DNA of 36,742 bases from Minisyncoccota bacterium (GTDB lineage: Bacteria; Patescibacteriota; Minisyncoccia; UBA6257; 2-01-FULL-56-20): contig JANWIW010000008.1 of NCBI GenBank assembly GCA_025449695.1, forward strand, positions 1 to 36,742. Reading direction: 5' to 3'. Shown here in pieces: positions 3,476 through 31,071 of this stretch; positions within the stretch are counted from its first letter, which is position 1, and the number at the start of each line of letters is the position of its first letter. The notes under the pieces were generated by a model, which saw nothing but the letters and a program-made list of their open reading frames with translations, ran no database searches and was not told the origin of the DNA. The position numbers and the translations under genes were made by a program.

Positions 3476-3950
3476 AGTGAGTAGGTTGTAGTGAGTAGTG
3501 AGTAAGGGGCGGTCACTCCAACTTCCGGATCAATACATTGAGCATTTTCATCACTTCCCCGAGCAATGCATCCATCTTAGCAAATTGCACATCTTTACCA
3601 AAGGGCAGCCGTTCCGCAATGGTGGCCTGGGTTTCTAGCTCTGCGCCGGAACCAAATGCCTCGCAAAGATATTTGCGAAAATCTTTCCGAGAATTCCTCC
3701 TGCTTCCCTCGGCGATATTCGAAGCTATCGAAACAACGGCTCTTCTCATTTGCGAGACCAGACCGTAGGTTTCGGAACGAGGAAACCGTTCTGTAACCGC
3801 ATATACTTCTTGCGCTAATTCAATGGATCGTTGCCATACGACAAGATCCCGATATGAGGAAATGCCCACGGTCAAAGAATTTCACACTCTTTAGTTGAGC
3901 ACAAAAGACGAGGTTGTGGACTACTCACTACGCACTACAAACTATTCACT
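3476..3950. repeat. Inverted repeat pair flanking the first S23 gene
   Basis: The left arm at 3476-3504 and the right arm at 3922-3950 are inverted copies of a 29-bp sequence with 26 of 29 positions matching. The arms consist of the quasi-repetitive unit AGTGAGTAG. The gene at 3513-3875 is the only thing between them. The left arm begins 6 bases beyond the start codon of the ligase gene. Confidence 0.85.
3513..3875 (-). CDS. Four helix bundle protein, S23 / 23S rRNA intervening-sequence protein family
   Basis: A 120-residue protein with the family signature: SYRDLVVWQRSIELAQEVY near the N-terminus, then FPRSETYGLVSQMRRA, SIASNIAEGSRR, and FGSGAELETQ. The family (PF05635) was first seen as the ORF inside 23S rRNA intervening sequences and forms a four-helix bundle; its biochemical role is not established. 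Here it is not inside rRNA but lies between the glycan operon and rny, enclosed by a 29-bp imperfect inverted repeat. Start chosen as the first ATG giving the usual short leader before SYRDL; a start a few codons on is possible. No convincing Shine-Dalgarno site. Confidence 0.85.
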   Translation of the reverse strand: MTVGISSYRDLVVWQRSIELAQEVYAVTERFPRSETYGLVSQMRRAVVSIASNIAEGSRRNSRKDFRKYLCEAFGSGAELETQATIAERLPFGKDVQFAKMDALLGEVMKMLNVLIRKLE

Positions 3951-3965
3951 GCGGTTGAATACGCG

Positions 3966-5483
3966 CTAGCGCGCGTATTCAACCGCGCGCATCTCCCGGA
4001 TCACGTTCACCTTGATCTCGCCCGGGTACTTCAGCTCGCTCTGGACGCGGTTCGCGATCTCCCGCGCCATCTCCAGGGCGCGGAAGTCATCCACCTTCTC
4101 CGGGATCACGAAGACCCTGAGCTCGCGGCCGGCAGAGATCGCGTAGGACTGCTTCACGCCGGGGAATTCGTTCGCGATCTTCTCCAGGTCCTGCAAGCGC
4201 TTGATGTAGTTCTCCATTGTGCCGCGCCGGGCGCCCGGACGGGCGGCGGACAGCACGTCCGCAGCGGTCACCACGTACGCCTCTGAAGACGCGTAGGGGT
4301 AGTCGTCGTGATGGGACTTCATCGCATCTATGATCTTCTCGTCGATGCCGTATTTCTTGAGAAGCTTCATGCCGAGATCCACGTGCGTGCCCTCAACCTC
4401 GTGGTCTATGGCCTTGCCGATGTCGTGGACGAGAGCGCCCTTCTTGGCGACAGCCACGTTCAGGTTCAGTTCCGCGGCGATCATGCCGGCCACGTGCGCC
4501 ATCTCGACGGAGTGGGTCAGGACGTTCTGGCCGAAGCTGGTGCGGAAGTGCAGCCTGCCCAAGAGCTGGACTATCTCCTTCGGCAGGTCGTAGATGCCCA
4601 CCTCCGCCACCGCCTGCTCGCCGATATCCATAGTGCGGCGGGCAATCTCCTGCTTGGCCTCCTCGACCGCCTCCTCGATCTTGGCGGGCTGGATGCGGCC
4701 ATCCTTCACGAGCTTCTCGAGGGCGATGCGGGCGATCTCCCGGCGATAGGGATCGAAGGAAGAGATGACTATGGCGCCGGGCGCCTCGTCGATCACGAAC
4801 TCCACGCCGGTGGCGCGCTCCAGGGCGCGGATGTTGCGGCCCTCGCGGCCGATGATCTTGCCCTTGATCTCCTCATCCGGCAGATGGAAGACGGTGGTGG
4901 TCAGCTCGGCGATGTGCGAGCGCGCGAAGCGCTGCAGGGCGATGGTGATGACCTCGCCTGCCTTCCTTTCCATCTCGTCCCGCCGCTCCGTCTCGAAGAA
5001 TTGGACGCTCTTGGCCAGGTCCTCCGCATGGCGGCCCTTCACCTCCTCGAAAAGCGCCTGCTTGGCCTCTTCCGCGGAGAGACCGGTGATGCGGCGCAAC
5101 TCCGCCTCCGCCTTGTCGTGCATGACGTCGAGCTCGCCCTCCTTCTTCTTTACCTCCTCCTCTTTGCGCTTGATGCCTTTCTCTTCCTCCGCGATGTCGC
5201 CAAGGCGCTTGTCCAAAAGCCCCTCGCGCTCGAGGAGACGATGCTCCAGCGCTGCGATCTGATTCTTGCGTTCCTTCTCCTCGTTCTTGCCCTCGAGCAA
5301 AACCTGCGCGGCCTTGTCCTTGGCCTCGACAATGATCTCTTTGGCCTTCGCTTCGGCCTCTTTGGTCTTCCGATCGCTCAGCTCTTCGAGCGAACCGATC
5401 TGTTTAGCCGCCCAAGACCTGCGGGCCAGGTACCCCAACCCTCCGCCCAAAACGAGCGCGGCGAGCGCTAGTATGTACTGCAT
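3966..5483 (-). CDS. rny: Ribonuclease Y
   Basis: The 505-residue protein has the full RNase Y order: one N-terminal transmembrane helix (about residues 2-20), a long charged coiled coil (about 30-190, rich in KAKE, EERE and RRKEEE), a KH domain with IIGREGRNIRALE near 208-220, and an HD domain with HSVEMAHVAG and GALVHDIGKAIDHE (about 320-410) supplying the metal-binding His/Asp residues. It is a membrane-anchored endoribonuclease that starts mRNA decay. The length is typical (about 510-520). Upstream on the minus strand TATAAA stands only five bases before the ATG, so the mRNA may be leaderless. The protein ends in the family-like KVNVIREMRAVEYAR. Confidence 0.97.
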   Translation of the reverse strand: MQYILALAALVLGGGLGYLARRSWAAKQIGSLEELSDRKTKEAEAKAKEIIVEAKDKAAQVLLEGKNEEKERKNQIAALEHRLLEREGLLDKRLGDIAEEEKGIKRKEEEVKKKEGELDVMHDKAEAELRRITGLSAEEAKQALFEEVKGRHAEDLAKSVQFFETERRDEMERKAGEVITIALQRFARSHIAELTTTVFHLPDEEIKGKIIGREGRNIRALERATGVEFVIDEAPGAIVISSFDPYRREIARIALEKLVKDGRIQPAKIEEAVEEAKQEIARRTMDIGEQAVAEVGIYDLPKEIVQLLGRLHFRTSFGQNVLTHSVEMAHVAGMIAAELNLNVAVAKKGALVHDIGKAIDHEVEGTHVDLGMKLLKKYGIDEKIIDAMKSHHDDYPYASSEAYVVTAADVLSAARPGARRGTMENYIKRLQDLEKIANEFPGVKQSYAISAGRELRVFVIPEKVDDFRALEMAREIANRVQSELKYPGEIKVNVIREMRAVEYAR

Positions 5484-6998: not shown

Positions 6999-8528
6999 AT
7001 GAAACGTACCGTGGTGCTCGTCGTCCTGGACGGCTGGGGTATTGGCCGCGACGACGAATCGAACCCCATCCATATGGTCCATCCTCCGACACTGGAGCGG
7101 CTGGCCGCGGAGTATCCCATGACCTCGCTCCAGGCATCGGGCATCGCCGTGGGACTGCCCTGGGGAGAGGTGGGTAATTCCGAGGTGGGCCACCTCACCC
7201 TGGGCGCGGGCAAGGTCCTCTACCAGTACTATCCGAAGATAAGCCTCGCCATCCGGGACCGCACGTTCTTTGAGAACGCCGCGCTTCTCGCGGCCTTCGC
7301 GCACGCGAAGAAGAACAACTCCGCCGTGAACCTGGTGGGACTTTTGAGCAAGGGCAACGTGCATGCATCCCTGGAGCACGTGGAGGCGCTCCTCAAGATG
7401 GCCGGCGAGCAGGGGGTGACCGACGTGAAGCTCCATCTTTTTGCGGACGGGAAAGACACCCCGCCCAAGTCTTTGGAGCGTTTTCTTGAACTCCTGCCGC
7501 GCGACAAGGTTGCGACGCTCGCCGGGCGGTACTACGCCATGGACCGGGAAGGGAACTGGGGCCTGACCCAGGAGACCTATAACCTGCTCACCGAGGACGG
7601 GCCCGCCGCGCCCGGCCTCGCGGCCGTCATCCAGGCCTGTTATGCCAAGGGTTTGAGCGAGGAATTCCTGCCGCCGACGCGGGTGGCCGCCGGAAAACAG
7701 ATCGCCGACGGCGACGCGCTCATCTTTTTCAACTATCGCGAGGATTCCATCCGCCAGCTCGCGGAAGCCTTCATCGCCAAGGAATTCGACAAGTTCCCGC
7801 GAGCATCCCTGCCGAACCTCTTCACCGTGACCATGACCCATTATAAGGAGGGATTTGAGGCGCCGGCGGCGTTTCCGGCGGACGTGGTGAAGAACCCTTT
7901 GGGCAAGGTGATCGCGGACCAGGGGCTCGTCCAGCTGCGCCTCGCGGAGACCTACAAGTACGCGCACGTGACTTACTTTTTCAATGGTTACATCGAGGAG
8001 AAATTCCAGAACGAGTACCGCGTGGTGATCCCCTCCGAGCCCATCCCCCATCCGGACGAGCGGCCGGCAATGATGGCAACGGCAATCACCGACCGCCTGG
8101 TCGCCGCCATCGAAGAGCGCGCGTACAGCTTCATATTGGTGAATTATGCGAACGGCGACACCGTCGCTCATACGGGCAACTACAAGGCCGCCGAGGAAAC
8201 GGTCAAGGTGATCGACCGGGAGCTGAGCCGGGTCGTTGCCGCGGTGGAGGCGACCGGGACCGTCCTCCTTATTACTTCCGATCACGGCAACGTGGAGGAG
8301 CTCCTGAATCCCATGACCGGCGAGCCGGAGACGCAGCATGACCCGAGTCCCGTGCCTTTCCACCTGATCGCTCCGGAACTCCGGGGTCGCCGTTTCGGCA
8401 ACTGGCCGCACGTGCGCGAGGAAACGGGCGGCATCCTTTCCGATGTCGCGCCGACTATCCTTGAACTCATGGGGATCCAGAAGCCGGAAGACATGACCGG
8501 CGAGAGCCTGCTGAAGGAACTTGTATAG
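6999..8528 (+). CDS. gpmI: 2,3-bisphosphoglycerate-independent phosphoglycerate mutase
   Basis: The 509-residue length is typical of iPGM. The N-terminus VVLVVLDGWGIG carries a metal-binding Asp; GEVGNSEVGH contains the catalytic Ser (Ser61); YAMDREGNW, FFNYREDSIRQL, NYANGDTVAHTG and ITSDHGNVEEL carry the remaining metal-binding Asp/His residues. It interconverts 3- and 2-phosphoglycerate in lower glycolysis in the cytoplasm, Mn-dependent. No Shine-Dalgarno site is visible, but TATAAT stands seven bases before the ATG, so the mRNA may be leaderless. The gene sits between repeat-rich spacers and is followed by a semi-palindromic CTAGATT/AATCTGG spacer that begins at its stop codon. Confidence 0.97.
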   Translation: MKRTVVLVVLDGWGIGRDDESNPIHMVHPPTLERLAAEYPMTSLQASGIAVGLPWGEVGNSEVGHLTLGAGKVLYQYYPKISLAIRDRTFFENAALLAAFAHAKKNNSAVNLVGLLSKGNVHASLEHVEALLKMAGEQGVTDVKLHLFADGKDTPPKSLERFLELLPRDKVATLAGRYYAMDREGNWGLTQETYNLLTEDGPAAPGLAAVIQACYAKGLSEEFLPPTRVAAGKQIADGDALIFFNYREDSIRQLAEAFIAKEFDKFPRASLPNLFTVTMTHYKEGFEAPAAFPADVVKNPLGKVIADQGLVQLRLAETYKYAHVTYFFNGYIEEKFQNEYRVVIPSEPIPHPDERPAMMATAITDRLVAAIEERAYSFILVNYANGDTVAHTGNYKAAEETVKVIDRELSRVVAAVEATGTVLLITSDHGNVEELLNPMTGEPETQHDPSPVPFHLIAPELRGRRFGNWPHVREETGGILSDVAPTILELMGIQKPEDMTGESLLKELV

Positions 8529-8586
8529 AATCTGGAAACTGGAATCTGGACAATCCCTAGATTCTAGATTCTAGTTACCAGATTCT
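8527..8586. repeat. Imperfect inverted repeat of the AATCTGG/CTAGATT type
   Basis: The first 23 bases (AGAATCTGGAAACTGGAATC and on) pair with the last 23 bases with about three mismatches. It fills the spacer between gpmI and the PF04020 gene. The same motif family occurs at 11592-11668 and inside ileS at 16318-16349. It could act as a transcript-stabilising or terminating hairpin. Confidence 0.7.
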
Positions 8587-8599
8587 GTATGCTTATTCC

Positions 8600-11740: not shown

Positions 11741-13546
11741 ATGCGCACTCGCACATACATCGCGCCAGGGGCCAAACGCCCCGGCACCGCTCCCAGAAAC
11801 GACGGGGGTAAAAAAAATAAACCCGCCTCCAATCCCCGCCTGGCCCGGACCCTGAAGCCCGGCCCCGTGAAGGGTGCCGCGCTCCGGCCGGACGAACTCA
11901 AGTTCGTCCCATTGGGAGGGATGGAGGAGATCGGCCGCAACTGCTACTACTTCGAGTACAAGGACGAGATCGTGGTGGTGGACGTCGGCATCCAGTTTCC
12001 CGAAGAGGAAACGCCCGGCATCGACTTCATCATTCCGAACGTAAGCTCGCTCGAGCCCAAGAAGAAGAACATCCGTGGCATCATCCTGACCCACGGCCAC
12101 TACGACCACATCGCGGCCATCCACTATGTCATCGAAAAACTCGGCAACCCGGTCATCTACACGACCGCCTTCACGAAGGGCATCGTGGAGAAGCGCCATG
12201 AGGAGTTCCCGAACGCGCCCAAACTGCGCTTCGAGGTGATCACCGACGGCTCCAAGGTCAAGATCTCCGAGCACTTCTCCGCTGAGTTCATGCACGTGGA
12301 ACACACCATCCCCGAGGCGTGCGCCTTCATCCTGGATACCCCCGCCGGCAAGATGGTGTCCTTCGGCGACTTCCGCCTGGACAACGACCCCGAAGGCAAC
12401 CCGCGCGAGCTGGACGCCTTCGAGAGGATCGGCAAGATGGGCATTAACAGCGTGTTCATGGATTCCACGAACGCCGATTTCAGCGGGTTCTCCATGTCCG
12501 AACGCGTCGTGGAGCAAAACCTGGAACAGCTCATCAAGGACGCCCCCGGCCGCATCATCATCGCCACCTTTTCCTCCCTTGTGGACCGGCTGATCGAGAT
12601 CATCAGCATATCCGAGCGCCTGGGCAAGAAGGTCGCCGTGAACGGCCGCTCCATGGTTTCCAACCTGGAGATCGCGAAGAACCTCGGCTTCCTGAAGGCC
12701 CGCACGGAAACGATGATCACTATCGAGGAAGTGCACAAGCACCGCGACGACCGGGTGGTGATCCTCACGACCGGCGCGCAGGGCGAGAAGAACGCGGCCC
12801 TGACCCGCATCGCCCGCGGCGAGCACCGCACGATATCGTTCAAGACCACCGATACCGTGGTGTTCTCGTCGTCCGTAGTGCCCGGCAACGAGCGCAGCGT
12901 GCAGATGCTGCAGGACATGATCTCGAGACAAGTGGAAGAAGTGCACAATTCCAGCCTGCTCGACATCCACTCTTCGGGCCACGCCTACGCCGACGACTTG
13001 AAGATCGTGCTGGAGCTCGTGAAGCCGCAGTACATCGTGCCGATCCACGGCTACTATTACAAACGCCGCGCGTACAAGAAGATCGCCAAAGCGGTCGGCA
13101 TGGACCAGAAGCAGGTCATGATGATGGACAACGGCCAGGTGGCCACGATCGGCAAGGATAGCTTCATCATCACCGGCCACCAGGTGCCCGCATCCTACGT
13201 CATGGTGGACGGCCTCGGGGTAGGCGACGTGGAGGAAGTCGTCCTGCGGGACCGCCTGAACCTGGCCGAGGAAGGCATGGTAGTCATCATCGCTACCGTG
13301 AACGGCCATGGCCAGCTCATCAAGAGCCCGGACATCATCTCCCGCGGGTTCATCTACATCAAAGACAACGGCGGAGTGCTCGAGGATGTGCGCAAGCGCA
13401 TCAAGGGCCTCTTTGACCGCGTGCCCAAGGACAAAGAGATAGACCCCGATTACTTCAAGGTACTGATCCGCGACCAGATCGCGCAGTTCCTGTACAACCG
13501 GACGAAGCGAAGACCGATGATCCTGCCTGTCATCATTAGGGTGTAG
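11741..13546 (+). CDS. rnj: Ribonuclease J
   Basis: The 601-residue protein is a metallo-beta-lactamase/beta-CASP nuclease. The metal motif is HGHYDH (residues 118-123), followed by EHTIPEACAF, FGDFRLD, TTGAQGEKNA of the beta-CASP domain, IHSSGHA and PIHGYYY. The C-terminal third carries KSPDIISRGFIYIKDN, typical of RNase J. The enzyme combines 5'-exonuclease and endonuclease activity in rRNA maturation and mRNA decay. The first 45 residues are basic, proline-rich and probably disordered, an extension found in other RNase J proteins. Glu of the usual HGHxDH motif variant is Tyr here, which does not affect the metal ligands. It is followed by an S23 gene unit, as rny is preceded by one. Confidence 0.96.
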   Translation: MRTRTYIAPGAKRPGTAPRNDGGKKNKPASNPRLARTLKPGPVKGAALRPDELKFVPLGGMEEIGRNCYYFEYKDEIVVVDVGIQFPEEETPGIDFIIPNVSSLEPKKKNIRGIILTHGHYDHIAAIHYVIEKLGNPVIYTTAFTKGIVEKRHEEFPNAPKLRFEVITDGSKVKISEHFSAEFMHVEHTIPEACAFILDTPAGKMVSFGDFRLDNDPEGNPRELDAFERIGKMGINSVFMDSTNADFSGFSMSERVVEQNLEQLIKDAPGRIIIATFSSLVDRLIEIISISERLGKKVAVNGRSMVSNLEIAKNLGFLKARTETMITIEEVHKHRDDRVVILTTGAQGEKNAALTRIARGEHRTISFKTTDTVVFSSSVVPGNERSVQMLQDMISRQVEEVHNSSLLDIHSSGHAYADDLKIVLELVKPQYIVPIHGYYYKRRAYKKIAKAVGMDQKQVMMMDNGQVATIGKDSFIITGHQVPASYVMVDGLGVGDVEEVVLRDRLNLAEEGMVVIIATVNGHGQLIKSPDIISRGFIYIKDNGGVLEDVRKRIKGLFDRVPKDKEIDPDYFKVLIRDQIAQFLYNRTKRRPMILPVIIRV

Positions 13547-13570
13547 GACTAGCATAGGGTATAGGGTATT

Positions 13571-14039
13571 AGGGTGTAGGGTTTCGGGTATTGGGTTTGA
13601 CAATCCACAGCCCTCTGGCTGTGCGAATGGAATGGCAAAGCTTAGGATGCGTAAGTGCTGACTTCCTATCGCGAACTACTCGTCTGGCAAAGAGGCATCG
13701 AGCTTGTTTCTCGGGTGTACGAGTTAACCCAACAGTTCCCGAAGACAGAACTCTATGGCCTAACAAGTCAAATGCGCCGGGCTGCAATATCCATACCGGC
13801 GAACATCGCTGAGGGTTACTCGCGCAGGTATCGTGCGGAGTATTTACAGTTCCTTCGGATCGCTTTCGGCTCCGGGGCCGAGCTTGAGACCCATCTTGCA
13901 ATAGCAGAGAAACTTGGCTTTACTTCCATAGAGACATCCGGGCCGGTTTTGAAATTGTTAACCGATGTCCTAAAATTACTGAACCGCCTCATGCAGTCTC
14001 TGGCCAGCCCTAAACCCAATACCCGAAACCCCACACCCT
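13571..14039. repeat. Inverted repeat pair flanking the second S23 gene
   Basis: The arm at 13571-13598 and the arm at 14012-14039 are inverted copies over 28 bp with a single mismatch; the core is GGGTTTCGGGTATTGGGTTT. The left arm continues outward as TAGGGTATAGGGTATTAGGG. The right arm encodes the C-terminal residues PNTRNPTP and abuts the stop codon of the S23 gene; trpS begins four bases later. Confidence 0.9.
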
Positions 14040-14041
14040 GA
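13655..14041 (+). CDS. Four helix bundle protein, S23 / 23S rRNA intervening-sequence protein family
   Basis: A 128-residue protein with the family signature SYRELLVWQRGIELVSRVYEL, FPKTELYGLTSQMRRA, SIPANIAEGYSRR and FGSGAELETHLAIAEKL; clearly related to the S23 protein at 3513. Function of the family is not established. The best start is GTG at 13655, three codons before SYREL; no ATG is available in frame. The last residues, PKPNTRNPTP, are encoded by the right arm of the flanking inverted repeat and are not part of the conserved family fold. Like the first copy it sits next to a major RNase gene, here rnj. Confidence 0.83.
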   Translation: MLTSYRELLVWQRGIELVSRVYELTQQFPKTELYGLTSQMRRAAISIPANIAEGYSRRYRAEYLQFLRIAFGSGAELETHLAIAEKLGFTSIETSGPVLKLLTDVLKLLNRLMQSLASPKPNTRNPTP

Positions 14042-14044
14042 TTC

Positions 14045-15034
14045 ATGCCCAAACCCGCCACCCTCTCCGGTATCCAGCCCACGGGCAAGCTGCACATCGG
14101 CAACTATCTCGGCGCGCTCAAGAACTTCGTCGAGCTCCAGGATTCCGGGAAGCACCGCTGCTTCTTCGCGGTCGTGGACCTGCACTCGCTCACCGAGGAC
14201 TTCACCGCCGGAGAGAAACGGCAACAGATCCTGGAATTGACCGCGGACTTCCTGGCCGCGGGACTCGACCCGGAACGGTCGGTTATCTTCCAGCAGTCCC
14301 AGGTGCCCGCGCACGCGGAGTTGACCTGGATATTCCTCACCGGCACGCCCATGGGCGAGCTGGAACGCATGACCCAGTACAAGGACAAAGCCTCCCGGCA
14401 ACAGAATAACCTCAACGCCGGGCTGCTCACCTACCCCGTCCTCCAAGCCGCGGACATCTTGCTCTATTCTCCGCCGGTCGTCCCCGTCGGCGAAGATCAG
14501 GCCCAGCACATCGAGCTGGCCCGCACCATCGCCCGCAAGTTCAACAAGAACTTTGGCCCCACATTCGTCGAGCCGAAGATCCTGCTCACCCAGGCGCCAC
14601 GGATCATGAGCCTGAAGGACTCCTCGAAGAAGATGTCCAAGTCCCAGCCGGAAGGATGTCTCTTCCTGGATGACGAGCCAAAGGTGGTCATGGACAAACT
14701 GAAGCGGGCGGTCACCGATTCCGGGACGACGGTCTTCTACGATCCGGAGAACAAGCCTGCGATCTCCAATCTCCTGCGCATCTGGGCGGGCCTCACGGGT
14801 GAAAGCCTGGACAATGCAGAGGAGCGCTTTGCCGGCAAGACCTATGCCCAATTCAAAGGCGAGCTTGGGGAGACCGTGGCCGGCCATTTCGCCGCTTACC
14901 GGACGAAGAAGACCGCGCTCATGAAAAAACCCGGCACCTTGAAGAGGGTATTGAAGGAAGGTTCCGAGAAGGCAGCCACGGTGGCTCAGAAGAAACTCTT
15001 AGAGGTAAAGAAAAAAATGGGCATACTCATATAA
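14045..15034 (+). CDS. trpS: Tryptophanyl-tRNA synthetase
   Basis: The 329-residue protein is a normal-length bacterial TrpRS. It starts LSGIQPTGKLHIGNYLGALK, with HIGN (17-20) as the class I HIGH signature; KKMSKS near residue 195 is the second ATP-binding motif. GTPMGELERMTQYKDK, LTYPVLQAADILLY and VPVGEDQAQHIELAR form the tryptophan pocket region. It charges tRNA-Trp in the cytoplasm. The ATG follows the S23 stop by three bases and the TM2 gene starts four bases after the trpS stop. Confidence 0.97.
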   Translation: MPKPATLSGIQPTGKLHIGNYLGALKNFVELQDSGKHRCFFAVVDLHSLTEDFTAGEKRQQILELTADFLAAGLDPERSVIFQQSQVPAHAELTWIFLTGTPMGELERMTQYKDKASRQQNNLNAGLLTYPVLQAADILLYSPPVVPVGEDQAQHIELARTIARKFNKNFGPTFVEPKILLTQAPRIMSLKDSSKKMSKSQPEGCLFLDDEPKVVMDKLKRAVTDSGTTVFYDPENKPAISNLLRIWAGLTGESLDNAEERFAGKTYAQFKGELGETVAGHFAAYRTKKTALMKKPGTLKRVLKEGSEKAATVAQKKLLEVKKKMGILI

Positions 15035-15377: not shown

Positions 15378-15716
15378 TGTCATCCCGAGCAGCGGCGAGG
15401 GACCTCTATGCCATATTATTGCTATATCATGACCAACAAGCTGCGGACCGTGCTGTATGCGGGAGTGACCGGTGATATGCAAACACGGCTAGCTGAGCAT
15501 GTTTCGAAGTTCAATAAGGACAGCTTCACCGCCAATTACAACGTGAACCGCCTGGTGTGGTCTGAAAGCTTTCAGAGGGTAGAAGATGCCATTGCGATGG
15601 AGAAGCGGATCAAAGGGTGGAGTCGGGCAAAGAAGCTGGAGCTTACACAAAGCAGGAACCCACGGTTCCAAGTCCTGAACTAGCTCTGGGGTCCCTCGCC
15701 TTCGCTCGGGATGACA
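15378..15716. repeat. TGTCATCCCGAG inverted-repeat arms enclosing a GIY-YIG gene
   Basis: The left arm is 15378-15407 and the right arm 15685-15716. Both read outward-in as TGTCATCCCGAGC, three variable bases, GGCGAGGGACC; 24 of the first 27 positions match. The left arm ends at the base before the ATG of the GIY-YIG gene and the right arm starts one base after its stop, so the gene exactly fills the element. Direct repeats of target DNA were not found. Confidence 0.85.
15408..15683 (+). CDS. GIY-YIG nuclease superfamily protein
   Basis: A 91-residue single-domain protein. The signature is YYCYIMTN followed by VLYAGVTGDMQTRLAEH (a GIY-x-YIG variant, with Y..Y and YAGVT), then the catalytic-type Arg in TRLAEH and the Glu in AIAMEKRIKGWSRAKKLELI-like helix (EDAIAMEKRIKGW). 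The usual GIY-YIG mini-proteins (UPF0213-like) of this length are thought to be DNA endonucleases, but their substrates are unknown. The gene is bounded on both sides, with no spare sequence, by inverted arms of the TGTCATCCCGAG repeat. No Shine-Dalgarno site: the arm itself occupies the upstream position. Confidence 0.87.
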   Translation: MPYYCYIMTNKLRTVLYAGVTGDMQTRLAEHVSKFNKDSFTANYNVNRLVWSESFQRVEDAIAMEKRIKGWSRAKKLELTQSRNPRFQVLN

Positions 15717-15736: not shown

Positions 15737-18700
15737 CTAAACCTTCACGAGCGCGATCTTCGCGCGGCCCTCGAAATCCCCCGCCTGCACCAAGGCTTCG
15801 GCGGGCGCGGTCGCCTTCTCGATCTTGGAGATATAGGTTTTCTTCGCGTCGAACAAATTGAACGCCTGTTCTATCTCCGCATCGGCGGTCTCATAGCGCA
15901 ACGCCGCCATCTCGCCCACTTTGAAACCCTGCGCCTTGCGCATTCCCTGTACGAAACGCTCCAAGCCGCGGGTCAAGCCTTCGAGCTTCAGTTCGGGGGT
16001 CAGTTCCGTATCGAGCTTGGCGATGGGAACATCGCCCGTCATTTTAAAGATGCCTGCCTTTTTGACATTGAGCTCGTCGCACAGGATACGGGTCAGTTCG
16101 GGGTCCAGCTTCGCATCTTCCGTCCCCATCTCGATGGTGACGCCGGCGAGGGGCTGACGAACTGGCAGGTTCAAAGCCTTGCGCGCCGCCAAACCCAAGC
16201 TGGCTGCCTCGCGCACGGTACGCATCTGCTTCAAAAGCTCCTGTTCTTTCTCCGTGAGAGCCTGCTTCTCCGGCCAGCTTTGCAGATGCACGCTCTCGAC
16301 CTTCTTTGTTCCGCCTTCCAGATTCCAGATTCCAGATTCCAGATTCTGGTATATCGCCTCCGCAAGGTGCGGCATAACCGGAGCGATGACCTTGGAAACG
16401 GTGATTAAAGTTTCGCGGAACGCGGGATAGAACCCGGCATCTTCCCGGCCGCGCGAGCGGCGCAAGTACCAGGTGGAAAGGTCGTCAATGAAATTCTCCA
16501 TGGAGCGCGTCGCATGCACGGTGTCATAGCTGTCCAGGTGATCGGTCACCTCGTTGACCAATTCCTTGGTGCGCGCGGTGATCCAGCGATCCAAAGCAAA
16601 GCCATGCTTTGGATCGCTGTCCCGCGTAGCTTTAGCGAAGTGGGACTCGTCACTTTTCTCTTGCGGCGCACCCGCCTTCGCTAAAGCTTCGGCGGGCAAG
16701 TAAGTAACATAGTACTGGTACACGTTCCAGAGGATCATGACCACCTTGCGATAGACGTTCCCGAGGTCTTTCTCGCTGAAGTTCACATTGTCGCCCTGCA
16801 TCACGACCGAGTTCATGAGATAGAAGCGCAGGCTGTCCACGCCATACTTGCCGATGGTAAGCCACGGGTCCGGAAAGTTGTTCTTGGACTTGGACATCTT
16901 GCTGCCGTCCTCGGCAAGGATGTTGCCCGTCGTGACCACGTTCTCGAAGGGAGCGCGGTCGAAGATCACTTGCGAGATCACATGCATCACATAGAACCAG
17001 GCGCGGGTCTGGGCGATATACTCGGCCACGAATTGTGCTGGGAAGCGGCTCTCAAATAATTCCTTGTTTTGGAAGGGATAGTGATACTCGGCGAAGGGCA
17101 TGGAACCAGCCTCCACCCATGAGTCGAAGATCTCCGGCGTGCGCCGCATCTTGCCGCCGCACTCGCAGGCGAGAATCACCTCGTCTATGTAGGGGCGGTG
17201 GAGATCGGTCAAGCCCGTCACCACCTCGCGCGGCGTCGCGTAGTCCGGCTCTACCAGGATGTCCTCTCCGAGCGCTTCCATGACGAGCCAGAGCGGATCG
17301 CCGTGACTCACGATGACGATGCTCTTGCCGGGGTGTTTGGCGGTCAGCTCGTTCACGATTTCCACCATGCGACTGCGGATGCCGGTCCAGGTCTCGCCCC
17401 CCTCCGGAGCTATCTTCCACCATCCCGCCGCAGGACGAGACTTGTCAAAATCCTTCTCTGATTTCCCGTTCCAGATCCCCACATTGAACTCCCGGAGGCG
17501 GGGGTCGGTCACGACCGGCACGCCGGTTGCCTCGGCCACGATCTCCGCGGTTTCCCTGGTGCGGAGGAGATCGGAGGAGAAAATCAGGTCCACGCCCTTC
17601 GCTTTCAGGGCTTCCGCCGCGGCGCGCGCCCCTTCTTTGCCCTTCTCCGTGAGGTGGTACACGCCCGGCTCCGGGTAAGCGCTGATAATATCCTCCACGT
17701 TCTGTTCTGCCTCGCCGTGCCGCATGAAATGGAACGTCGTGGGCGCGAGGCCGAGATCGGCGACGCTGCCTGCCACTTTCTGCCTGCCGCAATCCCCGCA
17801 TTTCCACACGGGGATGGGATTCCCCCAGTAGCGATTGCGGGAGATGTTCCAGTCCGGCGCGGCCTCCACCGACTTCTCGTAACGGCCGTGCTTCAGATGG
17901 CCGGGAAACCAGTTGATCTGCCCGGCATTAGTGCGCAGGAGATCGGGCTTTATCTTCTGCACATTGATGAACCAGGCCGGGATCGCATTGTAGTAGAGGG
18001 CGGTACCGCAGCGCCAGCAGTGCGGATAAGAGTGGGTATGCATGGTCCGCTTGAGGAGCAGGCCGCGCTGTTCCAGGTCCTCCTTGATAGCCTTCTCGGA
18101 ATGTTTGAAATACTGCCCGCGGATGAGTTCCGGCGCTTCCATGTTGAATTTCCCTTTCTCGTCGAGAAGCGGCACGATCGGCAATCCCTCCCGCAGGCCC
18201 AGCTGGTAATCGTCCTCGCCGTATACGACTGCGGTGTGCACAATGCCGGTGCCCTCCTCAGTGGTCACGAAATCGGCCGTATAGACCTTGAACGCCCTCT
18301 CACTCCTCAGTGCCGGGATATCGAAGAGAGGCTCGTAGGCCAGACCGGCCAGGTCCTTGCCCTTGGACTCCGAAAGTATCTCGTATCCTTCCGGCGCGAC
18401 CTTCGCCACCAGCTCCTTCGCGAGGACGTATGTTTCTCCGCCGATCTTTGCCTTCACGTAATCGATCTCGGCGCCCACCGCGAGGGCGACGTTCCCCGGC
18501 AGCGTCCAGGGCGTGGTGGTCCACGCCAGGAGATACACATTGCTGTCATCCTGAGCCCCATACTTCATACGGGGCGAAGGACCTTCTCCCTTTGAAACAG
18601 AAGGTTCTTCGCCGGCGCTCAGAATGACAGAGGGAGGGGTGCTTATTCTGAATTTTACATACACCGACTCCTCGCTCACGTCCTTGTAGCTGTTGTCCAT

Positions 18701-19357
18701 CGCCACCTCGAAGTTCGAGACTGGCGTCTCGCACCGGGGGCAATAGAGCAAGACCTTGCGGCCCTCGTATACGAGGCCTTTGTCGTATACCTGTTTGAAC
18801 GCCCACCAGACCGACTCCATGAAGGTGCGGTCCATGGTCTTGTAGGAATTCTCGAACTCGGTCCAGCGCCCCATGCGGCGAACCATCTTGGCCCATTCGT
18901 CCACGAACTGGAGCACCATGGAGCGGCAGGTCTCGTTGAACCGCTGGATGCCGATCTCTTCGATCTGCTTTTTGCCGGAGATGCCGAGTTTGCGCTCCAC
19001 GATCTCCTCGATCGGCAATCCGTGGCAATCCCAGCCCCAGCGGCGGCGGACGAACCGCCCGTGCATCGTCTGATAGCGCGGTATGAGATCTTTAATAGTG
19101 GAAGCGAGAATGTGTCCGTAATGCGGAATGCCCGTCGCGAACGGCGGTCCGTCGTAGAACGTGAAGGGCTTGCCATCCTTGGTACGCTCCAGGGATTTTG
19201 CGAACGTGGTGTCCTTTTCCCAGAATTCGATAACCCTCTCCTCAAGCTCGGGGATGGACAGCGTGTCGTCAAAGGGCTTTCCTGCGGCCGGCTTTTCGAA
19301 TCCCTCGAGCATGTCCCTCAAAGTACCAGAAAGCCAAGGAAAATCAAAGGCGCCCAT
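15737..19357 (-). CDS. ileS: Isoleucyl-tRNA synthetase with embedded histidine phosphatase domain
   Basis: About 1206 residues from the ATG at 19357; ATG at 19312 (MLEGFEKP) is an alternative. Longer frames to 19516 overlap the promoter and start of the divergent gene and were rejected. Class I core: HYGH at 79-82, editing domain beginning LLAWTTTPWTLPGN (near 275), NRYWGNPIPVW, KMSKS near 820, and a C-terminal anticodon-binding region. Zinc-type CxxC pairs occur at CPRC, CGDC and CECG. Between GSVADLGL and VVTGLTDLHRPYIDEV, residues about 540-701 form a complete histidine phosphatase domain: RHG in FMRHGEAEQN, Arg in SSDLLRTRETAE, Glu in LREFNVGIWNGK and His in IVSHGDPLW, so all four catalytic residues are kept. 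Three further insertions come from repeats: about 243-272, 888-925 and 1003-1014. The core charges tRNA-Ile; the role of the phosphatase domain is unknown. Confidence 0.93.
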   Translation of the reverse strand: MGAFDFPWLSGTLRDMLEGFEKPAAGKPFDDTLSIPELEERVIEFWEKDTTFAKSLERTKDGKPFTFYDGPPFATGIPHYGHILASTIKDLIPRYQTMHGRFVRRRWGWDCHGLPIEEIVERKLGISGKKQIEEIGIQRFNETCRSMVLQFVDEWAKMVRRMGRWTEFENSYKTMDRTFMESVWWAFKQVYDKGLVYEGRKVLLYCPRCETPVSNFEVAMDNSYKDVSEESVYVKFRISTPPSVILSAGEEPSVSKGEGPSPRMKYGAQDDSNVYLLAWTTTPWTLPGNVALAVGAEIDYVKAKIGGETYVLAKELVAKVAPEGYEILSESKGKDLAGLAYEPLFDIPALRSERAFKVYTADFVTTEEGTGIVHTAVVYGEDDYQLGLREGLPIVPLLDEKGKFNMEAPELIRGQYFKHSEKAIKEDLEQRGLLLKRTMHTHSYPHCWRCGTALYYNAIPAWFINVQKIKPDLLRTNAGQINWFPGHLKHGRYEKSVEAAPDWNISRNRYWGNPIPVWKCGDCGRQKVAGSVADLGLAPTTFHFMRHGEAEQNVEDIISAYPEPGVYHLTEKGKEGARAAAEALKAKGVDLIFSSDLLRTRETAEIVAEATGVPVVTDPRLREFNVGIWNGKSEKDFDKSRPAAGWWKIAPEGGETWTGIRSRMVEIVNELTAKHPGKSIVIVSHGDPLWLVMEALGEDILVEPDYATPREVVTGLTDLHRPYIDEVILACECGGKMRRTPEIFDSWVEAGSMPFAEYHYPFQNKELFESRFPAQFVAEYIAQTRAWFYVMHVISQVIFDRAPFENVVTTGNILAEDGSKMSKSKNNFPDPWLTIGKYGVDSLRFYLMNSVVMQGDNVNFSEKDLGNVYRKVVMILWNVYQYYVTYLPAEALAKAGAPQEKSDESHFAKATRDSDPKHGFALDRWITARTKELVNEVTDHLDSYDTVHATRSMENFIDDLSTWYLRRSRGREDAGFYPAFRETLITVSKVIAPVMPHLAEAIYQNLESGIWNLEGGTKKVESVHLQSWPEKQALTEKEQELLKQMRTVREAASLGLAARKALNLPVRQPLAGVTIEMGTEDAKLDPELTRILCDELNVKKAGIFKMTGDVPIAKLDTELTPELKLEGLTRGLERFVQGMRKAQGFKVGEMAALRYETADAEIEQAFNLFDAKKTYISKIEKATAPAEALVQAGDFEGRAKIALVKV
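16318..16349. repeat. Tandem CCAGATT heptamers inside ileS
   Basis: Four tandem copies of CCAGATT at 16318-16345 followed by CTGG. On the ileS strand they encode NLESGIWNLEGG. The same motif builds the intergenic inverted repeats at 8527-8586 and 11592-11668. Confidence 0.85.
16585..16696. repeat. Palindromic repeat cluster inside ileS (AGCGATCCAAAGC hairpin and neighbours)
   Basis: A perfect 13-bp hairpin, AGCGATCCAAAGC (16585-16597) with GCTTTGGATCGCT (16606-16618), is followed by GTAGCTTTAGCGAAGTGGGA (near 16626) and by CCCGCCTTCGCTAAAGCTTC with GGCGGG (16671-16696). On the ileS strand the cluster encodes SHFAKATRDSDPKHGFALDR and neighbours, a low-conservation stretch before the anticodon-binding part. 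Confidence 0.8.
18543..18630. repeat. TGTCATCC-family palindromic element inserted in frame in ileS
   Basis: The outer arms CTGTCATCCTGAGC (18543-18556) and GCTCAGAATGACAG (18617-18630) match 13 of 14. The inner arms GGCGAAGGACCTTCT and AGAAGGTTCTTCGCC match 14 of 15. On the ileS strand the element adds about 30 residues (SVILSAGEEPSVSKGEG and on) between YVKF and the editing-domain motif, leaving the frame intact. Confidence 0.88.
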
Positions 19358-19415
19358 GACGACCCCGTCGTGTAGGCAGGCTCGTTTTTTCTGTGCCGCG
19401 CCGCAGATGCGGGTT

Positions 19416-19444
19416 TTGACAGAGGCTTCCTTATCCGATATAAG
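19416..19444 (+). promoter_or_regulatory. Promoter of the 19462 gene
   Basis: Consensus TTGACA at 19416-19421, spacer of 17, TATAAG at 19439-19444, followed by GGAGG and the ATG at 19462. It overlaps the upstream extension that a longer ileS start would need. Confidence 0.8.
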
Positions 19445-19461
19445 GACCTTGGAGGCTTCAC

Positions 19462-19824
19462 ATGAACAATCAGGATGTCCGAGTGCTTCAAGCGGAGCAC
19501 TCTCACCATTACGCAATTGTGAGCGAGCCGAGCAACGGCGTTGCCATTCTCCTCATCGCTGATCGACAGAGAAACGCGCTGGTTGCGCTCTTGCTCAAAG
19601 GGCCGCTCCAGGGTGACAACAATCTCACGCTCTCCTTTGTCGACACGAGAAACCGGGGCGAGCTCGAACCGGGATTTCCCCTGACCGGCTGGCGGCAGAG
19701 CAACACGATCTTCCGGAGCGCCCTGGCCCGCTGGCTCATGAACGTGAGCGAGTTCCCGCACGTGTGCCGTAACGAGGACCTGATCAGATCCTTCCACGAA
19801 CACATCGAGGCATCGACGCGCTAA
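19462..19824 (+). CDS. Hypothetical protein divergent from ileS
   Basis: Unrecognised soluble protein of 120 residues. The ATG follows GGAGG (19450-19454) by seven bases and a consensus promoter by 17 bases, so the transcript leader is short. The sequence has a beta-rich N-terminal half (VRVLQAEHSHHYAIVSEP, GVAILLIADRQRNALVALLL, NLTLSFVDTRNRG) and a helical C-terminal half (SALARWLMNVSEF, LIRSFHEHIEAS). No signal peptide or membrane segment. Monocistronic, ended by the hairpin at 19881-19905. Confidence 0.75.
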   Translation: MNNQDVRVLQAEHSHHYAIVSEPSNGVAILLIADRQRNALVALLLKGPLQGDNNLTLSFVDTRNRGELEPGFPLTGWRQSNTIFRSALARWLMNVSEFPHVCRNEDLIRSFHEHIEASTR

Positions 19825-30514: not shown

Positions 30515-30721
30515 GCCTCAAGGTTACGAATGATCTCTAAACTACGCTTAAACCCCATGTCGTTCTAACGAACTCTGCGCGGGGTCCACCCCACTTCAGT
30601 AAACCTTCGCGGGGTCCACCACTCCGCTCCTTCGCGAGCTTCTTTTTCAAACTACACTATCCCGCCTTAAGGCGGGATAGTGTAGTGGTGCTGCGCACCG
30701 CGTAGCTCCGAAGGAGCGGAG
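30515..30721. other. Repeat-rich region downstream of tmRNA
   Basis: No gene supported. It contains two direct copies of CGCGGGGTCCACC (about 30577-30589 and 30608-30620), the left arm of the tmRNA-end inverted repeat and a 36-base palindrome. Confidence 0.6.
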
Positions 30722-30728
30722 TGGTGGA
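30615..30728. repeat. Perfect 20-bp inverted repeat that includes the tmRNA 3' end
   Basis: The left arm TCCACCACTCCGCTCCTTCG (30615-30634) is the exact inverse complement of 30709-30728. The right arm contains the encoded CCA and first acceptor bases of tmRNA. A 36-base perfect palindrome lies between the arms. Confidence 0.9.
30651..30686 (-). terminator. 36-base perfect palindrome, likely tmRNA terminator
   Basis: ACTACACTATCCCGCCTT followed directly by its inverse complement, 18-bp stem. On the minus strand it is followed by TTTGAAAAAG and lies 36 bases downstream of the mature tmRNA end. Confidence 0.65.
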
Positions 30729-31071
30729 GATGGGCGGAATCGAACCGCCGTCTAACGATGCAATCGATGAGCCTTCTACGGGCGTAGTTTCCTTGCGGAA
30801 GCGAAATTGGTCCTAATTTAGCGCCTGAGCCAGGACCATCGCTCCGGCGCGAGCCTCCTTATATAAGACCGCTACCCGCCTAAGAGGCGAAAGCGGGGCG
30901 ATCCTCAGACATTACGCGTAAGCGTAAGCGGCCGGAGCTGCAACTTTGGAGTTGGCAGTTAAGAGTTGTGCGGGTTTAACCCTCCTTCGCGTAAAGCTAC
31001 GGAGGGCGCTGCGAGTCCGCGCTCGGCCCGCGAGCTCATGAAGCAAGCGTTATCGATGCCAGTGCATCCCC
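30722..31071 (-). ncRNA. ssrA: Transfer-messenger RNA (tmRNA)
   Basis: On the minus strand the RNA starts GGGGATGCACTGGCATCGAT at 31071 and ends GGTTCGATTCCGCCCATCTC plus CACCA at 30722. The acceptor stem GGGGATG pairs with CATCTCC (one G-U), the T-arm is GGCGG/CCGCC around TTCGATT, and CCA is encoded. The tag reading frame is best read at 30956-30912: GCC AAC TCC ... TAC GCG TAA, giving ANSKVAAPAAYAYA, 14 residues, with the usual A-N start and an AYAYA end in place of the common ALAA. Length about 350 bases, standard order and not permuted. It acts with SmpB (gene at 21780) in ribosome rescue. A near-consensus promoter lies at 31096-31124. Confidence 0.95.

Follow-up and report, generated by a model that had tools for sequence, protein, structure and literature searches.

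Between rnj and trpS of the window, by which we mean the whole 36,742-nucleotide stretch analysed here, an S23 gene lies enclosed by two inverted arms made of quasi-tandem 7-mers, and this layout of an S23 gene between inverted arms is the rule for S23 genes. In our judgement the feature probably represents a coding copy within a family of miniature hairpin elements, with S23 as the coding member of a REPIN-like system that also includes the intervening sequences (IVSs) of rRNA, and the data suggest a widespread family of mobile hairpins, little recognised so far, to which the gene belongs and which inserts into rRNA genes as well. The focal element has the following parts:

13568 to 13598, plus strand: left arm, found by inverted-repeat search, made of heptad units
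13655 to 14041, plus strand: focal S23 (23S_rRNA_IVP) gene, L002, an open reading frame matching PF05635, with a GTG start and a TGA stop within the right arm
14012 to 14042, plus strand: right arm, the reverse complement of the left arm, ending 2 nt before trpS

A single inverted repeat was found between 13300 and 14300, its arms of 31 nt being 94% complementary (29/31) and 413 nt apart, and the 28-bp arms with one mismatch that the first-pass annotation had placed around the gene are real and contained within them. On the left side the outer repeats extend beyond the matched arm to approximately position 13552 (ATAGGGTATAGGGTATTAGGG...), and since the rnj stop codon is at 13544-13546 and trpS starts at 14045, the element occupies the entire gap. 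The reading frame of 128 residues is a member of PF05635 (E 5.8e-36, 123.4 bits vs a cut-off of 33.8) and the right arm encodes its C-terminus, SPKPNTRNPTP, which bears out the annotated claim that this arm codes for the last residues PNTRNPTP. The predicted RNA fold of the element pairs both arms (z -4.05, 100 shuffles), and the arm score is 26.0 as compared to a 99th percentile of 13.8 and a maximum of 31 among 1232 same-size control positions from 94 S23-bearing loci, some of the high-scoring controls being a neighbouring S23 element as judged from gene positions. The Rfam search matched no family at the focal element, and S23 is the sole recognised gene between the arms (PF05635 plus a sub-threshold bAvd match in Pfam), with no transposase gene among them. 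The window contains another element of the same kind:

3476 to 3504, no strand assigned: one arm of the first S23 element, found by inverted-repeat search, AGTGAGTAGGTTGTAGTGAGTAGTGAGTA
3513 to 3875, minus strand: first S23 gene (PF05635, 1.4e-34), adjoining RNase Y (3966-5483, minus strand)
3922 to 3950, no strand assigned: other arm of the first S23 element, found by inverted-repeat search

As had been noted, the arms of the two elements are unrelated in sequence while the layout is alike, and both elements span 475 nt in total.

At least one PF05635 match was found in 28 of 41 genomes including the source genome, which has five in the profile search. Arms were sought at 94 fetched S23 loci by aligning the 160-nt upstream flank with the reverse-complemented 160-nt downstream flank, the threshold being the 99th percentile (13.8) of the 1232 same-size positions in the same loci; this positional control was adopted because mononucleotide shuffles gave a lower ceiling, their maximum of only 14 being below that of the positional controls. 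Among the 91 loci with complete flanks, inverted arms exceed the threshold in 71 of the 88 S23 genes scoring at least 40 bits vs 13 of the 1232 controls, and in none of the three loci below 40 bits (L030, L031 and L032), of which L032, a broken fragment, shows its arms (score 18) only with 200-nt flanks. The argument that two unrelated arm pairs around one gene family speak against chance is thereby sustained, as the arms do accompany the gene, and the flanks of S23 genes in relatives, which it had been proposed to compare with a control, lie far above that control. For named genomes of other phyla, the best 80 of 573 S23 loci gave 43 above the 99th percentile of 1406 controls, and the armed loci among these 80 include Nostoc, Anabaena, Phormidium, Brucella, Mesorhizobium, Clostridia, Bacteroidota and Planctomycetota. 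The count of 43 of 80 includes L181, a duplicate of the L043 locus in G022 with the same arms on a contig of 27745 nt, which was kept in the named-genome arm and cognate counts and in the 174-locus neighbour count and omitted from the 173-element set used for the unit, arm-similarity and tree analyses. In 33 of 94 rows, 3 of them without credible arms, the S23 stop codon lies at or past the start of the right arm. Two loci deserve separate mention: in L015 (1239-2027) the S23 frame continues through the right arm into the downstream frame to give 263 residues in all, possibly a fusion created by the arm, and around a Planctomycetota S23 gene (L207, 2848-3192 plus flanks) inverted heptad arrays (ACGGTGG/ACAGTGG) fill most of the 220 nt on each side, with a score of 132.5.

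The first-pass annotation had also remarked that both S23 genes of the window sit beside genes of decay nucleases, and this does not hold in general: within approximately 1.5 kb rnj-like sequence is found at 7 and RNase Y at 2 of 174 S23 loci, and of the 7 rnj-like neighbours one is a duplicate and all except L200 represent the same rnj-trpS junction. The earlier interpretation is supported in that the arms belong with the gene and unsupported in its RNase theme. It overlooked the 7-bp units, the outward extension of the repeats on the left, the presence of cognate hairpins elsewhere in the genome and the connection with inserts in 23S rRNA.

The arm unit varies between S23 genes. Its best length is 7 in 66, 8 in 15, 6 in 2 and 9 in 2 of the 85 elements that were testable among 128 well-armed ones, and upstream arms rich in G outnumber those rich in C by 101 to 21, with 244 occurrences of TAG vs 76 of CTA. 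The unit follows the S23 protein and not the genome. For cross-genome pairs of S23 genes in gene orientation, mean arm similarity starts at 5.4-5.7 where the proteins are less than 40% identical, is 6.2 at 40-50% and 6.8 at 50-60%, and then reaches 10.7 at 60-70% (n=73) and 16.2 at 70% or above (n=6), whereas in the opposite orientation it is flat at 4.5-6.3 whatever the S23 identity, and S23 pairs within one genome have unlike arms with a mean similarity of 6.0 (n=101). Shared descent alone could yield this trend, genome-wide composition could not, and the sharing of arms among similar S23 proteins can be plain common descent and not recognition.

Hairpins without a gene occur as well. In the long stretches of the source genome that were scanned, many such hairpins have the units AATCTGG, GGGTATT and AACTAGC and the 9-mer GTTCTAATC, which are those of the S23 genes L001, L002 (the focal gene), L004 and L005, respectively, and two of them fall within the window:

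8524 to 8589, no strand assigned: bare hairpin of the AATCTGG unit between two open reading frames, cognate to S23 gene L001 on contig C26
11599 to 11668, no strand assigned: bare hairpin of AATCTGG/AATTTAG units between a tRNA gene and rnj, present in one hairpin scan and absent from the list of the other

A lone AATCTGG array, with no partner arm reported, is found on the minus strand at 16320-16346 inside a 1259-residue reading frame (15737-19516), and at locus L130 of the source genome an AATCTGG hairpin (17265-17348) lies in frame within the plus-strand reading frame 17023-17403 of that locus. L004 (G000:C36:66350-66595), the fourth S23 gene of the source genome, has arms and bare hairpins and may be a recent pseudogene because of an in-frame TGA. 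Two inverted repeats of other kinds were encountered in the window: one (TGTCATCCCGAGCAGCGGCGAGGGACC) at 15378-15404 and 15690-15716 around a span of 339 nt, which recurs in the source genome with perfect 31-nt arms at L134:7536-7715 and is a REP-like dispersed palindrome, and a perfect 20-nt repeat (30615-30634 and 30709-30728), one arm of which overlaps the tmRNA gene (30722-31071, minus strand) at its end and which could be a scar left by integration or a structure like a terminator.

For 27 hairpins drawn from S23-bearing genomes, from which two beside S23 genes (L123:12389 and L138:5581) had been removed before the cognate tests, the best-matching of the 86 S23 arm sets belongs to the hairpin's own genome in 19.5 cases, as compared to a mean of 1.38 and a maximum of 13 over 5000 permutations. 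The replicate in other phyla (best 80 of 573 loci) gave 6.5 of 28 hairpins tested, 33 having been found, against a permutation mean of 0.45 and a maximum of 4.5. Collapsed to S23 families, the counts become 11 vs 0.92 expected in the first sample and 12 vs 1.15 for all data, and a hold-out of newly fetched stretches gave 3 families vs 0.38 expected (p 0.0028). A similarity of at least 18 is reached by 17 of 163 same-genome pairs vs 19 of 3621 other pairs, and in G026 three hairpin units match three of its own S23 genes. Many hairpins are without a cognate S23 gene within the sampled set, and some hairpins of S23-less genomes resemble S23 arms from other genomes, which would fit S23 gene loss, missing contigs or a non-S23 agent. 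Hairpin density was tried as a measure of S23 dependence and set aside, since the ratio is in the expected direction, yet the 39 hairpins in 1,233,612 bp of 14 S23-bearing genomes vs 7 in 751,931 bp of 10 S23-less ones correspond to a Mann-Whitney p of 0.13 over genomes; the hold-out gave 10 in 397,000 bp vs 4 in 400,000 bp. We consider it highly probable that S23 genes and hairpins are associated. It could be imagined that the arms arose by replication slippage of short repeats and local inverted copying with S23 uninvolved, as degenerate tandem units are what slippage produces and the in-register test left independent arms possible, the local alignment itself setting the register; the cognate tests, the correlation between protein and arms and the positional controls are however in poor agreement with this, and we regard it as very improbable.

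Some hairpins reside in 23S rRNA. When 16 23S genes were compared with the compact 23S of G032 as reference, the 23S of G026 was found to have a 131-nt insert at reference 587-606, placed after model position 583 by the Rfam alignment, the hairpin of which scores 30.0 with that genome's own S23 gene L076, joint best among the S23 arm sets compared, and a 119-nt insert at 1799 with a 9-mer hairpin best matched by its own S23 gene L046. An insert of 81 nt in G028 (714-718) carries the 8-mer unit of that genome's S23 gene L007 (rank 2), and periodic hairpins without a cognate S23 in the set are found in a 23S insert of G003 and of the source genome. The latter (L110, 3890-3984) is a 93-nt heptad hairpin of an AGGTTNN unit with no cognate among the five S23 genes of the genome. 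Unit hairpins thus occur in 4 of the 16 genes compared, most 23S inserts being of other kinds. Comparison by eye placed none of the clade's S23 matches in a located 23S gene, and a blastn search of the S23 loci against 17 23S loci gave short matches only, two of which (L076 and L091, via their arms) pointed to a 23S hairpin. The inserts with cognate hairpins tie the known IVSs to free-standing S23 genes.

A comparison of occupied and empty sites gives signs of movement. Empty sites, which had been suggested as a check, do exist, a clean case being L061/L140, where a 448-nt S23 element of G003 corresponds to 4 nt in G024 of the same genus with flanks approximately 80% identical; this one empty site (448 nt vs 4 nt), at that flank identity of some 80%, established no target-site duplication. 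Other cases are provided by the rnj-trpS junction of relatives, for which 30 loci were fetched, 22 of them having rnj upstream in the stretch. An S23 element occupies this junction in four genomes (G000, G015, G003 and G009), inverted arms of other units without S23 are found in G007, G036 and G029, the hairpin of G036 matching by eye the unit of its own S23 gene L087, G028 has an 8-mer array by eye, and the remaining 14 have neither S23 element nor hairpin, the shortest gaps being 17-31 nt (G034, G014, G018 and G030). A fifth S23 element at the junction is found in G022, outside the 30-locus survey, and there the repeat runs from the rnj stop codon to the trpS start. Since the five S23 proteins split into two groups (L002, L016 and L043 at 56-60% identity and L047 and L049 at 67%, with 40-44% for the between-group pairs compared), S23 likely arrived at least twice at this junction. 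On a quick S23 tree the five genes require 4 changes, and the same tree has 29 phylum changes for 24 phyla over 55 labelled rows and is uninformative in this respect. Within genes, tsaD of the source genome contains an in-frame GGGTATC hairpin (L130:3208-3276) of the focal gene's unit, in a stretch that is mostly unaligned in the best PDB homologue, and an AATCTGG half-array is coded closer to the start of the gene.

These positions also bear on the notion that the hairpins act at the RNA level as regulatory or protective structures, such as mRNA stabilisers or processing sites, S23 being a host RNA-binding regulator with autoregulating arms and movement being rare and incidental. The elements do fit tightly between the stop and start codons of their neighbours, the G-rich and TAG-rich upstream arm (101 vs 21; 244 TAG vs 76 CTA) suggests action in RNA, and a regulatory role has been guessed for the STRRs (PMC2670836). 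Such a function is however difficult to reconcile with hairpins inside tsaD and inside 23S rRNA and with the patchy presence at the rnj-trpS junction, and we find it quite unlikely.

The S23 family is a four-helix bundle (PMC4990558), and its homology to Avd has been discussed (PMC10053308). Solved relatives are 2gsc and 2rld. The differences by codon position over ten S23 pairs (299/184/635) indicate that S23 is under purifying selection. The focal protein matches bAvd (PF22296) with an E value of 0.00035, below the bAvd cut-off. Three weak PF05635 matches near reverse-transcriptase matches, L029-L031, are without arms (scores 5.5, 8.0 and 10.0, the left flank of L029 being only 100 nt), and L030 and L031 score better as bAvd than as S23; these three provide a small negative control for arms from within the data. 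To our knowledge S23 has no known catalytic domain and no recognised nuclease motif. This would suit an explanation in which a different agent, either a RAYT/Y1 transposase or a reverse transcriptase, had spread the hairpins and S23 is a passenger that settled inside some of them, as would the presence of Y1_Tnp in 11 and of an RVT_1 match in 19 of the 41 genomes and of hairpins in S23-less genomes. However, Y1_Tnp and RVT_1 have no match in the source genome (93% completeness), which is the hairpin-richest (15 in 216,742 bp), nor in G020, and within that completeness a RAYT or a reverse transcriptase of those families therefore does not explain the hairpins of the source genome. Furthermore, a unit of its own for each protein lineage and a fixed orientation are unexpected of a passenger, and we hold this explanation to be unlikely.

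We lean towards a role for S23 itself in mobility. The element would be a long stem of degenerate units of 6-9 bp, mostly 7, in most copies closed by a short empty loop, the S23-carrying copy having the same unit as its bare hairpins. RAYT proteins are thought to support the spread of REPINs. By analogy with Avd and with the RAYT-REPIN pair, S23, which is related to the DGR factor Avd and like it a four-helix bundle, may recognise its own unit, whether in folded RNA or in single-stranded DNA, and may support the spread of the hairpins as RAYTs would for REPINs. The folded strand would be copied by host enzymes, and cutting and joining would likewise fall to host enzymes, since S23 has no recognised nuclease motif. 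Both the bias in orientation and the close fit of the elements between one gene's stop codon and the next gene's start codon speak for an action on transcripts, or on strands that become exposed during transcription. As the copy would fold on itself, it may be tolerated in intergenic positions, as an in-frame part of genes and within rRNA, from which RNase III could excise it as is known for rRNA intervening sequences, and these IVSs would then be the rRNA-resident members of the S23 hairpin family.

S23/IVP genes are still called uncharacterised, and the origin of rRNA IVSs and of STRR heptad hairpins is left open in the literature cited here (PMC4990558, PMC2670836, PMC11270868). The cognate pairing makes the S23, IVS and STRR questions testable together, as there are several protein-repeat pairs per genome and the other pairs provide built-in controls. 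It would also explain S23 genes lying between genes of a cas locus without a CRISPR role, such as the IVP gene between cmr3 and cmr2 that starts 86 nt after one and ends 6 nt before the next (PMC3936711). In the open-access literature, outside which most subscription papers lie, the texts available describe neither heptad arms at free-standing S23 genes nor cognate hairpins.

Among known systems, DNA transposons with terminal inverted repeats differ from the focal element in having a transposase gene. The DGR proteins Avd and bAvd share the four-helix-bundle superfamily with S23, but the source genome has no RVT_1 match and the bAvd-like L029-L031, found near reverse-transcriptase matches, are without arms. 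The REPIN/RAYT system (PMC3116915) is similar in its protein gene beside the repeat, its many non-autonomous hairpins of the same type and its several families per genome each with a protein of its own, and by the cognate tests the dispersed hairpins here likewise match the repeat flanking one protein gene; here, however, the protein is S23 and not a Y1 (HUH) transposase, for which the source genome has no Y1_Tnp match, and the repeat is a tandem unit of 6-9 bp and not a fixed REP. In CPR rRNA, 23S_rRNA_IVP ORFs are scattered over several 16S and 23S sites and inserts occur with and without an ORF (PMC11270868), as do the elements described here, but the main text of that paper mentions no hairpin, inverted repeat or repeat, and free-standing copies and cognate hairpins are not described in its passages available. 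The Coxiella burnetii 23S IVS has an S23 ORF in the loop of an element of approximately 430 nt with a 28-bp closing stem and is cut out by RNase III, and Ralph and McClelland (1993, as cited in PMC4990558) proposed that it is of mobile origin and that the ORF is its mobility component. The focal S23 ORF likewise sits in the loop of a closing stem, with 31-nt arms and 475 nt in all, whereas the element is free-standing between the protein genes rnj and trpS and not in an rRNA gene, its arms are degenerate 7-mers and bare cognate copies are found elsewhere in the genome; in G026 bare cognate hairpins do sit in 23S. The cyanobacterial STRRs are 7-bp repeat hairpins of unknown function (PMC2670836) found between genes and inside structural RNAs, with the heptanucleotide repeats in P6b of the Nostoc trnL intron (PMC4476775) as a comparison case and Vioque 1997 (in the reference list of PMC2858038) treating repeats of this type, and the cyanobacterial S23 genes examined here have heptad arms. 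We propose, from the description of STRRs, that they are perhaps S23 hairpins. Whether S23/IVP represents a pan-bacterial class of mobile hairpins, in which a short tandem unit is read by a protein that is not a transposase, the unit code is specific to each S23 lineage, and free-standing S23 genes, rRNA IVSs and cyanobacterial STRR hairpins are all members, seems to us an evenly balanced matter.
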